DNA from: Nocardioides sp.
Lineage (GTDB): Bacteria > Actinomycetota > Actinomycetes > Propionibacteriales > Nocardioidaceae
Length of the DNA stretch: 33,458 nucleotides
Reading direction: 5' to 3'
NCBI GenBank assembly: GCA_025965125.1
Contig: JAOPXM010000146.1
Location: 1-33,458, forward strand
A program made the translations under genes and the position numbers. Positions 15,820 to 29,058 of the stretch are shown in pieces (within the stretch, counting starts at the first letter, position 1; each line of letters opens with the position of its first letter). The notes beneath the pieces are model-generated. The model was not told the origin of the DNA, made no database searches, and saw nothing but the letters and a program-made list of their open reading frames with translations.

Positions 15820-16500
15820 TCAGGGCTTGCGCTCCTCGGGTGCTCCGCCGGCCGAGAACGGCGCCTTCTTGTCCGCTGTGGGGATCAGGTCGCCGGCTGG
15901 CTCGCTGTAGGAGACCTGGCTGAGTCGGTCGCCCACGAAGTGAAACGACGTCAGGGAGCAGAGCGTGCACTGACGCTTGCGCGGGTCGTGGAGGAAGGAG
16001 CGGCCTTCGACGTGCAGCCGCGTCGTCCAGATCGGCAGCTGGTGGGAGACGAGGACCGCCTCATGGCCGGCCGCCGCGATCCGGGCGTCGTGGACCGCCG
16101 CCATCATCCTCGCGACGATGTCCTTGTACGGCTCGCCCCACGAGGGCTTGAACGGGTTCCACAGGTGCCGCCACGCCGACGGCCTGCGCAGGGCGCCGTC
16201 TCCGACCCCGAAGCGCATCCCCTCGAAGACGTTGGTCGACTCGATCACGCGCTCGTCGGTGACGATCTCGAGGCCTCGGGCCTGGGCAAGCGGCCGGGCC
16301 GTCTCCTGGGCCCGCTCCAGGGGCGAGACCCGCAGGTGGACGATGTCGCGGTCCTTCACGGCGTCGGCGACCTTCTCCGCCATCTGCTTGCCCAGGTCCG
16401 AGAGGTGGTAGCCGTCGCGGCGGCCGTAGAGCACGCCGTCGGGGTTGTGGACCTCGCCGTGGCGAAGCAGGTGGACGATCGTGTCGGGGGTCGCGTTCAT
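15820..16500 (-). CDS. Histidine phosphatase family protein
   Basis: A 226-residue protein from ATG 16500, overlapping the hemL stop as ATGA. The phosphoglycerate-mutase-like signature [10 protein letters not shown] places the phospho-accepting His at residue 14. The second catalytic His lies in LVSHQLPIW, and a conserved [10 protein letters not shown] arginine loop lies between. It is cytoplasmic; the substrate is unknown. Its fixed place between hemL and the ccs genes (Rv0525 in Mycobacterium) suggests a linked but unproven role. Confidence 0.9.
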
Positions 16501-17825
16501 CGGTCCTTCTCGGTAGCGGCCGCGGCTCTGGCGGCGTCGGGCAGAGCGTCGAGCACCGTCGACACGGCGCGGTCGTCGTGCGCCGAGGAGAGGAACCACG
16601 CCTCGTACGCCGACGGCGGCAGGTAGACGCCACGGTCGAGCATCGCGTGGAAGAACGCTGCATAGGCACGCGAATCGGTGCGCGACGCGTCGTCGAAGTC
16701 GCGCACGCTGCCGTCCGCGAAGAAGACCGAGAACATCGTGCCGGACGCCTGGACGACATGCGGGACGCCGGCCCCGGAGAGTGCGGTCGCGACCGCGTCC
16801 TTGATGGTCTCGCCGGCACTCGTGATGTGGTCGTAGACCTCCTGGGTCGCGAGCCGCAGCGTGGTCAGCCCGGCGGTGGTGGCGACGGGGTTCCCCGAGA
16901 GGGTGCCTGCTTGGTAGACCGGCCCCTCGGGCGACAGCCGCGACATCACGTCGGCCCGCCCGCCGAACGCAGCGGCCGGGAAGCCGCCACCCATGACCTT
17001 TCCGAACGTGACCAGGTCGGGCCGCCAGCCCTCCACCGCGCCATCCAATCCCCACTGTCCGAGCCGACTGGCCCGGAAGCCGGTCATCACCTCGTCGCTG
17101 ACGAACAGGGCGCCATGGCGGGTGCAGGTCTCGGCCAGGAACGCGTTGAATCCCGGCTCCGGTGGCACCACACCCATGTTCCCGGGAGCGGCCTCGGTGA
17201 TCAGGCACGCGATCCGGTCGCCGTGCTCGGCGAACGCCTTGTCGACGGCGGCGCGGTCGTTGTACGGCAGCACCAGTGTCAGGGCGGTCGACGACTCGGG
17301 CACCCCTGGCGTGCCCGGCACGGCGAACGTGGCCAGGCCCGATCCCGCGGACGCGAGCAGCGAGTCGACGTGACCGTGGTAGCAGCCGGCGAACTTCACC
17401 ACCACGTCGCGGCCGGTGAAGCCGCGCGCGAGCCGGATCGCGGACATGGTCGCCTCGGTCCCCGACGACACGAGGCGCACTCGCTCGACGGGGGCCCGGG
17501 TCACGATCTCCTCGGCCAGCTCGACCTCTGGTTCGGTGGGCGTGCCGAACGACGTACCTCGGGTTACGGCCGCTGCCACCGCGGCCTGCACATCGGGGTG
17601 TGCGTGCCCCAGGAGCATCGGCCCCCAGGAGCAGATCAGGTCGACGTACTCGTTGCCGTCCACATCAGTCAGCCATGCCCCGCTGGCCGACCGGATGAAC
17701 CGCGGGGTGCCACCCACGGCGTTGAACGCGCGTACCGGGGAGTTCACGCCGCCGGGCGTCACCGCGCGGGCGCGCTCGAACAGCGACGCGGACGCGGCGG
17801 TGTGGTCGGGCCGGAGGGGGCTCAC
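16497..17825 (-). CDS. hemL: Glutamate-1-semialdehyde 2,1-aminomutase
   Basis: A 442-residue PLP enzyme that makes 5-aminolaevulinate from glutamate-1-semialdehyde, the step after HemA. The PLP lysine is Lys276 in [12 protein letters not shown], with upstream [15 protein letters not shown] and DEVMTGFR; the N terminus has [13 protein letters not shown] chose GTG 17825, which gives the usual N terminus and lies six bases after a GACAAT -10; the frame stays open further upstream but with unrelated composition. It heads the operon hemL, phosphatase, tlpA, ccdA, resB, ccsB. Confidence 0.96.
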
Positions 17826-17866
17826 CGAGTCATTGTCCCCAACGGTCCAACCCCGGCATGCCGGGG
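17826..17866 (-). promoter_or_regulatory. hemL leaderless promoter with palindrome over the -35 region
   Basis: On the minus strand GACAAT (17837-17832) ends six bases before the hemL GTG. At the -35 position no consensus hexamer is seen; instead a perfect 16-bp palindrome CCCCGGCA/TGCCGGGG spans 17851-17866. This is where an activator or repressor would bind. The -10 and spacing match those of the antiporter gene at 2562. Inferred from pattern only. Confidence 0.45.
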
Positions 17867-17990
17867 GCCAGTCCTGGGCACCGGGAAGGTGTTCCGGGCC
17901 ACGGAATCGATGCTGTTCGGCGTCATGACCAGCCGCAATTCCCGTCACCTTGACACGGCCTCGAGTCGAGGACCAGTGCCACGTATCGGA

Positions 17991-18025
17991 CACATCCGTA
18001 ACTTGGATGTGACACGATTCGTTGT
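17991..18025 (+). promoter_or_regulatory. Candidate sigma-BldN-type promoter of the lytic transglycosylase
   Basis: -35 CGTAAC (17997-18002) and -10 CGTTGT (18020-18025) are 17 bp apart, identical in both hexamers and spacing to the promoter at 29030-29058. The reported sigma-BldN consensus, as I recall it, is CGTAAC about 16 bp from CGTTGA. A 7-bp inverted repeat CACATCC-N7-GGATGTG (17991-18011) brackets the -35, a possible operator. The expected 5' leader is about 50 nt and contains the ribosome site. Confidence 0.65.
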
Positions 18026-18084
18026 ATCGGTGTTCGGTGCTTGAGGGAGTGCCACGAACAGCGTCAGAATTGGGAGTGCATCGG

Positions 18085-19275
18085 ATGTCCGCAAAGCGTT
18101 TCGGCCGCGTCCAGAAAGCAACGGCGATCCTGCCGCTCGCTCTGCTCTCGGCAGCGTGGACGGCCAGCCTCGCAGGAGTCGGTGCGGCCACTGTTGCCGC
18201 GGACGCCGAGCCGAACACGTCACTGCCGGACGGCACGAGTGTGCCGTCGCAGGCGATCGAGGCGCCGGCGAGTGTGTCGTCGCGTGGTGCGGTGTCCCCG
18301 GATGTCTCGGGTGCGGGCGACGCGGAGCAGATCGTGGCCCATGCGTCGACCTCGGGGATCCCCTCGGCTGCCCTGGCGGCCTACCAGCGTGCCGAGACCG
18401 TGATCAACTCCGCTGACAAGTCCTGCAACCTGACCTGGCAGCTGATCGCGGGGATCGGGCGGGTCGAGTCCAACCACGGCCGCGCGAACGGCAACCAGCT
18501 CAACAACGACGGGGTCGCCACCCCGGGCATCTACGGTCTCGCGTTGAACGGCCAGCACCACACCGCGCTGATCCGCGACACCGACGCCGGCCAGTTCGAC
18601 GACGACACCGCCTACGACCGGGCGGTCGGGCCGATGCAGTTCATCCCCTCGACCTGGTCGGTGGTCGGGGTCGACGCCGACGGCGACGGGCAGCGCAACC
18701 CCCAAGACATCGACGACGCAGCCCTGGCCACCGCGGTCTACCTGTGCTCGGGCAACGACGACCTGGCCACCACCGCGGGCCAGCACGCCGCGGTCTACCG
18801 CTACAACCACTCCGCGTCCTACGTCGACCTGGTGCTGTCGATCATGACCGCCTACGCCGACGGCGACTTCACCTCGGTGCCCAACAGCACCACCGCGGCC
18901 GGGGTCATCGCCCCCGACCCCAACTACGTGGCACACCCCCACCCCAACAACGGCGCCCACGGCCCCGGACACCCCCACGCCCAGCACGTCCCCACCAACC
19001 AGCCCGGCAGCGGCGGCGAAACCACCCCACCGCCCACCCAACCCACCGACCCCCCCGAGACCGGCGGCAACGGCAACAACGGCGGTGGTGGGGTCCCGAA
19101 CATCCCACTCCCCCCGGTCACCCTGCCCCCGCTGCCCACCACCTCGATCGCCCCCGTCGACGACATCCTCACCATGGCCCAGGCCATCGTCCAGTGCACC
19201 CTCGACGGCTACATCGACAACATCCTCGTCAAGAACGACAAGTTCGACCGCTGCCTGATCCGCTACACCCACTGA
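18085..19275 (+). CDS. Secreted lytic transglycosylase (MltB-like)
   Basis: A 396-residue exported protein from ATG 18085, with ribosome site GGGAG eight bases upstream. An N-terminal signal peptide (basic start, hydrophobic stretch to about residue 37, likely cleavage after VAADA) is followed by a catalytic domain with Glu128 in [10 protein letters not shown], then [10 protein letters not shown] (about 182-191) and a calcium-loop-like [13 protein letters not shown]. This is the SLT_2/GH103 pattern for non-hydrolytic cleavage of peptidoglycan to 1,6-anhydro products. Residues about 290-360 are a proline-, histidine- and glycine-rich linker. A short C-terminal segment with two cysteines ends the protein. 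It is monocistronic, divergent from hemL and apparently driven by the sigma-BldN-type promoter at 17997-18025. Confidence 0.88.
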
Positions 19276-28030: not shown

Positions 28031-28200
28031 CCACGCCCTAGGAGATGTCCTTAGTTTTCAGGGAACGTGTTCTAGTTCTGAGCGGTCCGGGCGGCCCCGA
28101 TGGTCCAGACCAGGGATCTGCCATTTCGTTCCCAGGACCGGTACTTCGGCCTATCCTTTGGGTGGCTTCGGGGGGAAGTCGTACTGGGAGGGTGCACAAG
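28031..28200 (+). promoter_or_regulatory. Leader and probable promoter region of the bldN-like sigma gene
   Basis: This 170-bp gap is less G+C-rich than its surroundings. TATCCT (28152-28157) is a plausible -10 about 43 nt before the sigma ATG. Near the HAD stop there is GAAC-gt-GTTC (28063-28072) followed by a tandem GTTCT-a-GTTCT (28069-28079). No CGTAAC/CGTTG pair is present, so this gene is probably not under its own sigma factor. The ribosome site GGGAGG is at 28186-28191. Confidence 0.35.
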
Positions 28201-28977
28201 ATGCCGTGGAACGGTGCTGACGTTGCGCGCGGGCTAGAGGCCCTGCGCGTCACGGTCACGCGCCTCATGGCCCTCGAGGACCCCCTCCTGGCCGGTATCC
28301 CCACCCCGCTCCTCTCCGAAGCCCGGGCCGATGACAACGCCGGTGCCGGCGCCGCAGTCGTGCCGGGTGGACCGGACGGGTACGGCGACTCCGACCTCGC
28401 GACGTCATCTGAGGAGTCCGAGGCCGACCGCACCAGGCTGATCGCCCTCGTCGAGCTGGCTCGCACCGGAGACTCCGAGGCGTTCGGGCTCCTCTACGAC
28501 CACTACCAGGGGTCGGTCTACCGCTTCCTCTTCTACCGGACGCGGTCCACGGCGCTGGCCGAGGACCTCACGTCGGAGACGTTCTTCCGGGCGCTGCGGA
28601 GCATGACCAACTTCCGCTGGCAGGGCAAGGACTTCGGCGCCTGGCTGATGACGATCGCCCGCAACCTGGCGACCGACCACTTCAAGGCCGGCCGCACCCG
28701 CCTCGAGCTCACCACCGAGGACATGGGTCTCCACGACGACGCCACCGAGGGTCCCGAGTCGGCGGTGCTCGCCGGTCTGACCAACGACATCCTGCTCAAG
28801 GCACTCACCGAGCTCCCCGACGAGCAGCGCGACTGCCTCGTGATGCGCTTCCTGCAGGGCATGAGCATCGCGGAGACGGCGGCCGTGCTCGGCCGTAGCG
28901 ACGGTGCCGTCAAGCAGCTCCAGCTGCGCGGGGTCCGCAATCTCGCGAAGCTGATGCCAGAGGGGATCCGGGACTGA
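28201..28977 (+). CDS. bldN: ECF-type RNA polymerase sigma factor, sigma-BldN-like
   Basis: A 258-residue sigma factor from ATG 28201 (GGGAGG nine bases upstream). Residues about 92-163 are region 2, including EDLTSETFFRALR and FRWQGKDFGAWLMTIARNL. Residues about 197-252 are region 4 with LPDEQRDCLVMRFLQGMS and GRSDGAVKQL. About 75 residues precede region 2, starting with a GLEALRVTVTRLM helix: this resembles the N-terminal pro-sequence that marks Streptomyces BldN, a regulator of aerial growth. It is followed by an RsbN-like anti-sigma gene, as in Streptomyces. Orthology is an inference from the long extension, the sequence recalled and the gene order; whether the pro-sequence is removed here is unknown. 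Confidence 0.85.
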   Translation: MPWNGADVARGLEALRVTVTRLMALEDPLLAGIPTPLLSEARADDNAGAGAAVVPGGPDGYGDSDLATSSEESEADRTRLIALVELARTGDSEAFGLLYDHYQGSVYRFLFYRTRSTALAEDLTSETFFRALRSMTNFRWQGKDFGAWLMTIARNLATDHFKAGRTRLELTTEDMGLHDDATEGPESAVLAGLTNDILLKALTELPDEQRDCLVMRFLQGMSIAETAAVLGRSDGAVKQLQLRGVRNLAKLMPEGIRD

Positions 28978-29029: not shown

Positions 29030-29058
29030 CGTAACTTCCGCCCGTCGCCCATCGTTGT
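29030..29058 (+). promoter_or_regulatory. Candidate sigma-BldN-type promoter of the anti-sigma gene
   Basis: -35 CGTAAC (29030-29035) and -10 CGTTGT (29053-29058), 17 bp apart, lie in the 151-bp gap between the sigma and anti-sigma genes. Hexamers and spacing are identical to the site at 17997-18025. A promoter here would let the sigma factor induce its own inhibitor, independent of read-through from the sigma gene. The leader to ATG 29129 would be about 63 nt. Confidence 0.7.

Follow-up and report, generated by a model that had tools for sequence, protein, structure and literature searches.

The sigma factor BldN is known in Streptomyces as a switch for aerial growth and the sheath proteins. 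Its published recognition motif is CGTAACN16CGTTGA, with bldM as the sole known site at that time according to the accessible part of the report (PMC2375139). In the available sections of a 2013 review (PMC4255298), rsbN of Streptomyces venezuelae has its own BldN-dependent promoter, RsbN is noted as diverging unusually fast, and convincing orthologues of BldN were found only in morphologically complex genera; that review was the only item in the literature searched in which Nocardioides and BldN appear together. RsbN is classed as a class III anti-sigma factor in the accessible parts of two further papers (PMC7406223, PMC8103513), and as membrane-anchored in the second.

The window analysed here is a stretch of 33,458 nucleotides from Nocardioides sp. 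(assembly GCA_025965125.1, contig JAOPXM010000146.1), for which a preliminary description had proposed two promoters of this type and a bldN-like gene. The sigma gene is indeed present, at 28201-28977 on the forward strand, and encodes a predicted BldN-type ECF sigma factor of 258 aa with an N-terminal extension of about 80 residues. TIGR02952 (the BldN family) is the best of 86 families for this protein (E 3.1e-48), with a score of 163.9 bits against a cut-off of 206.45, and the protein is therefore termed BldN-type rather than a certified equivalog. Its best PDB match is 6dxo_A (4.1e-48; labelled in the output as an ECF-subfamily sigma factor), which we take to be the S. venezuelae sigmaBldN-RsbN complex, and the next is at 4e-14. 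The gene order hemB-hemD-hemC-hemA, a further gene, sigma, acyltransferase and a further gene is common to Streptomyces loci: hemC and hemA lie near sigma in all 12 Streptomyces-type loci and the acyltransferase in 11, with order and strands agreeing in the three loci displayed. Judged by sequence and gene order, the sigma factor is the positional orthologue of BldN.

On re-reading the sequence, both hexamer pairs lie at the proposed positions on the forward strand, each with a 17-bp spacer. The first (17997-18025; -35 CGTAAC at 17997-18002, -10 CGTTGT at 18020-18025) is the predicted sigma-BldN-type promoter of a lytic transglycosylase gene, and the second (29030-29058; CGTAAC at 29030-29035, CGTTGT at 29053-29058) is the predicted autoregulatory promoter of rsbN. 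Both are exact, a scan of the whole window finds no other exact CGTAAC-N17-CGTTGT pair, and both are nearly identical to the BldN motif as given in the available part of PMC2375139; transcription would be expected to start at about 18032 and 29065. With up to two mismatches allowed, the window contains five matches, of which these two alone are exact, against 1.34 expected from 100 shuffles.

The gene following the first site (18085-19275, forward strand) encodes a 396 aa SLT_2/MltB-like protein (PF13406, 2.3e-11) with a signal peptide judged by eye, and is located between hemL (frame 16497-18236) and hemB, on the opposite strand. The SLT_2 match is far below the MltB cut-offs and the PDB matches, 7qvd and 9vlr, are weak, although a VES motif, presumably catalytic, aligns with 7qvd; secretion and lytic activity are predicted for the protein. 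Judged orthologues are present in 35 of 37 same-genus genomes, and the promoter core CGTAAC-N16/17-CGTT is exact upstream of 33 of the 35 and carries one mismatch in another; the single orthologue with no site upstream belongs to a genome (G028) in which sigma and rsbN are present. The site also precedes all eight orthologues in the Kribbella-type family f3, and none of three same-genus paralogues. At conserved sites in the relatives' loci, the spacers diverge and the hexamers stay. In four genomes of family f4 (L144, L145, L146, L147) a conserved site is found close to hemB and hemL, these names being read by eye for two of the four, with no transglycosylase gene in the fetched stretch. A link between BldN and a lytic transglycosylase was not found in the literature searched, which did not extend to the primary BldN regulon papers or their supplementary tables, where an earlier report is possible; text naming both, in the portion available, does not connect them.

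The second site precedes an RsbN-like anti-sigma gene (29120, or 29129, to 30328, forward strand) with a DUF5667 domain (PF18915, 2.2e-11) and a membrane segment judged by eye, whose product would be the inhibitor of sigma in this organism. Such a gene directly follows sigma in all 30 same-genus loci fetched, and each has an exact CGTAAC-N17-CGTT core between the two; an rsbN match is present in 35 same-genus genomes. A set of 80 named loci, the best 80 of at least 576 confirmed relatives, spans Nocardioides, Marmoricola, Aeromicrobium, Kribbella, Actinopolymorpha, Streptomyces and relatives, and Frankiales MAGs; here 71 carry the exact core and nine a core with a single mismatch (CATAAC in six, CGTCAC in three), at a spacing of 17 in 79 loci and 16 in one, though these loci and the same-genus genomes may in part be the same species and are not independent sets. 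The RsbN of the window matches at four of four Kribbella loci and at none of 12 Streptomyces-type loci at 1e-15, the latter being in line with the fast divergence of RsbN, and has no PDB sequence match. A promoter for rsbN is, from the accessible part of the 2013 review, already a known feature of the BldN system of S. venezuelae (PMC4255298). As to the motif originally proposed, the CGTAAC-N16/17-CGTT core is conserved, and the final two bases of CGTTGT vary among relatives.

In the 3.98 Mb draft genome from which the window derives, CGTAAC-N16..18-CGTTG[A/T] occurs nine times against none for the reversed pattern, a weak control that alters CpG content, for which reason wrong spacings were added. 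Over 25 same-genus genomes, this one included, CGTAAC-N15/16-TCGTTG gives 87 matches (summed rows) and 27 wrong spacings of these words together yield 49, or 1.8 per spacing and 3.6 for two, so that the natural spacings are enriched about 24-fold over the wrong ones. Coordinates place 62 of the 87 matches at five targets (rsbN and the transglycosylase 30, a small RNA 22, a trypsin-like protein 8, a beta-helix protein 2), the other 25 being outside this assignment. Fourteen other genomes of the order give 40 matches; the wrong spacings total 70 there, or 2.6 each. Background rates are low: an exact match occurs in 1 of 4,000 windows of 250 nt drawn at random and in 0 of 507 lying upstream of other putative genes, and the counts rise to 21 and 6 when up to one mismatch is allowed. 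The pair is thus both enriched over chance and conserved at orthologues, two of the points on which the preliminary description proposed that it be judged. The promoters were also described there as a local sigma-BldN-type regulon; comparison supports their type, but the sites are genome-wide and extend beyond the window. On these comparisons the two matching promoter sequences are real and strongly conserved, and the genes that they precede are very probably activated by a single sigma factor of developmental type.

An ABC-transporter ATPase gene (named by eye) is preceded by the same kind of site both here and elsewhere in the order, in other families (L004, L076, L156, L157, L158). Kribbella-type genomes (L154, L155) have recurrent sites before stretches with no long reading frame, which may encode small proteins or additional small RNAs.

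An exact CGTAAC-N16-CGTT site precedes the trypsin-like gene, which lies elsewhere in the same genome (L409, contig C135) and whose product is only tentatively named (Trypsin_2, 9.4e-4, 20.4 bits; cut-off 27.6). The protein is present in 18 of 39 genomes, and its 22 copies (the present genome counted in both cases) have an exact promoter in 14, one mismatch in six and no promoter in two. The beta-helix protein of this genome (PF13229, 1.1e-10) likewise has a site upstream, although its promoter is weakly kept, being exact in two of five homologues, own included, with one mismatch in one and absent from two.

The small RNA gene (L001:1474-1631, contig C33 of this genome, G000) is, in the same genus, usually located upstream of guaA. 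Among the first 20 sites examined, of which 19 have guaA nearby, a conserved element of three hairpins, roughly 125 nt in length, lies just downstream of the sigma-BldN-type promoter site; an alignment of 20 copies has 27 pairs, nine with changes on both sides. Hairpins 1 and 3 expose CUCCCUCCC loops, and the third is terminator-like. A covariance model from which the promoter was excluded finds one copy in each of 37 same-genus genomes, none in 21 other genomes of the order, and, at E up to 0.01, copies in 92 of 149 sampled family genomes and 11 of 26 genera, strict filters being liable to miss diverged copies. The promoter is exact in 33 of the 37 same-genus copies, has one mismatch in three (CGTGAC in two; CGGAAC-N17, read by eye, in G028) and is lost in one, G023; since 22 of the 37 were first met through the promoter pattern and 20 of these built the model, an unbiased test is provided by the remaining 15 alone. 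In other genera, 20 diverged copies selected solely with the model have an exact promoter in 17 cases and CATAAC in three. All 30 small-RNA-bearing genomes tested have sigma. Family genomes with no match to the model have a sigma match at 1e-15 in 16 of 20 cases (that in G075 being weak, at 30% identity), and the sigma factor is therefore older or more widespread than the recognisable RNA.

Identity of this RNA with 6C RNA was rejected, as no Rfam family reaches its gathering score at 20 loci (19 with the RNA); a permissive scan of one copy gives ar14 as the best match, at 29.3 bits against a cut-off of 58.8, and no 6C. Neither is it a mere guaA leader, as guaA follows it in 25 of 30 same-genus loci and in only three of 20 in other genera, where the stretch fetched, of about 1 kb, may have failed to reveal a diverged guaA. 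The RNA is apparently undescribed: no paper was tied to it in the literature searched, as judged from titles and abstracts, although the primary BldN regulon papers were beyond that search and an earlier report is possible. The main inference of the preliminary description, that the sigma factor drives a lytic enzyme and its own anti-sigma factor, is well supported by the comparisons, and the window pair would belong to a genome-wide regulon whose most novel predicted member is this small RNA.

A finished genome of the same genus (G023) has no sigma match (E up to 1e-20 and 1e-15), no rsbN that could be found and, in place of an intact transglycosylase orthologue, only a broken, distant homologue; the pair has no matches there at natural spacings, yet five at wrong spacings, and the small RNA is retained behind a promoter decayed to CGTAAT ... 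TAGTTG (read by eye). In five genomes of family f2, sigma (at 1e-20), rsbN and the transglycosylase are all undetected, and the four that were scanned have 0, 1, 0 and 0 matches, approximately as wrong-spacing counts predict. The exception is an 87% complete genome (G016) in which the same three genes are undetected, yet three matches occur, one of them at the small RNA. As the three genes are 11-17 kb apart in most relatives, an assembly gap or missing contig is the likely explanation.

The -35 boxes of rsbN and the small RNA may also be compared within genomes. Of 30 genomes, three in which the end of sigma was not located and G166, whose small-RNA site was spurious, were set aside; in the other 26 the boxes are CGTAAC in both promoters (10 genomes), CATAAC in both (9, all of genus g12), CATAAC at rsbN and CGTAAC at the RNA (6), or the converse (1); the association has a Fisher p of 0.014, not corrected for kinship. 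This shared change fits, but does not prove, the reading of both promoters by one sigma factor. Among 25 aligned sequences, region 4 of sigma has no clear residue that explains CATAAC, two columns differing (L/H and R/Q).

The best explanation, to which we give a probability of roughly 0.86, is that the two sites serve as -35/-10 promoters for RNA polymerase carrying the product of the BldN-type ECF sigma gene at 28201-28977. The comparisons establish the sequences themselves, their conservation and enrichment, the co-loss and the synteny; binding of this sigma factor to both sites is inferred. A role for a different ECF paralogue of the genome at some or all of the sites seems unlikely, although AAC-type -35 boxes are common among ECF sigma factors and the incomplete genome with three sites has no detected sigma gene. 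Against such a paralogue, the finished genome that lacks sigma has no site and a decayed small-RNA promoter, a site with no more than one mismatch follows sigma in 80 of 80 named loci, and the -35 change tends to be common to the promoters of one genome.

A conserved two-part word of fixed spacing could be the operator of a DNA-binding regulator. We consider this very improbable given that the word is non-palindromic, lies on the strand of the gene downstream, has the 16-17 spacing of ECF promoters, occurs just 5' of the first hairpin of the small RNA and is nearly identical to the BldN motif in the accessible text of PMC2375139. Least probable of all is the chance occurrence of two similar words in one window; five matches at two mismatches are reached in one of 100 shuffles, but conservation has already refuted this idea and the spacing controls also speak against it.

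If the sites are promoters of the BldN-type factor, sigma would become active on release by RsbN, and the freed sigma would transcribe rsbN, giving negative feedback, together with the secreted lytic transglycosylase, by which peptidoglycan would be opened or remodelled. The unlinked trypsin-like gene, the small RNA and, in some species, the beta-helix gene would be transcribed as well, both of these proteins being predicted to be secreted.

A second level of control may lie in the ribosome-binding site of the sigma gene, GGGAGGG at 28186-28192 (forward strand), which is complementary to the small-RNA loops (CCCUCCC). It is present at 36 of 45 Nocardioides-type sigma loci, four of 49 with no sigma motif usable for frame finding having been left out, against 14 of 245 background genes chosen for GGAGG; the count somewhat favours sigma genes, for which any start codon in frame and with a ribosome-like site was accepted, and the sigma orthologues are not independent. 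Aeromicrobium-type loci have it in five of seven cases by script and six of seven by eye, and it is absent from four Kribbella and 12 Streptomyces-type loci. The energy of the duplex is not exceptional, 12% of 252 background genes being at least as strong, and thus only the conservation of GGGAGGG speaks for pairing. Pairing of the loop with this site is a hypothesis and not an established finding; GGGAGGG may be no more than a strong ribosome site.

A broader picture, which is tentative and whose odds as a whole we place well short of even, is that the BldN-type sigma factor of the Nocardioidaceae commands a wall lytic enzyme, a secreted protease-like protein and an undescribed anti-Shine-Dalgarno-type small RNA, whose CUCCCUCCC loops would pair with GGGAGGG sequences, including that of the sigma mRNA, as a second feedback beside RsbN; on this view, Streptomyces would have added the sheath proteins later, to an older regulon of wall and RNA genes. 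If sigma does govern wall lysis and a small RNA in relatives of Nocardioides, the ancestral task of BldN may have been different, and its role before sporulation would become a directly testable question, for which the small RNA provides a concrete object with a defined promoter.

The system most similar to that described here is sigma-BldN/RsbN of Streptomyces, which has the same sigma family (best PDB match 6dxo), the CGTAAC-N16/17-CGTT element after the sigma gene and the order hemB-hemD-hemC-hemA ... sigma ... acyltransferase. The targets named differ, being chaplins, rodlins, bldM and rsbN in Streptomyces, as far as the accessible parts of the sources extend, and here, among the conserved predicted targets found, rsbN, the lytic transglycosylase, the trypsin-like protein and the small RNA. 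The small RNA itself has parallels in other regulatory RNAs. The 6C RNA of actinobacteria and the alphaproteobacterial ar14 and cuckoo (CcsR) RNAs also have hairpins with C-rich, anti-Shine-Dalgarno-like loops, and their sequences, promoters and taxonomic spread are different. In E. coli, sigmaE and the small RNAs RybB and MicA involve a different sigma group, promoter, RNA and anti-sigma factor, but resemble the arrangement predicted here, with an ECF sigma factor driving its own anti-sigma factor, envelope genes and small RNA.
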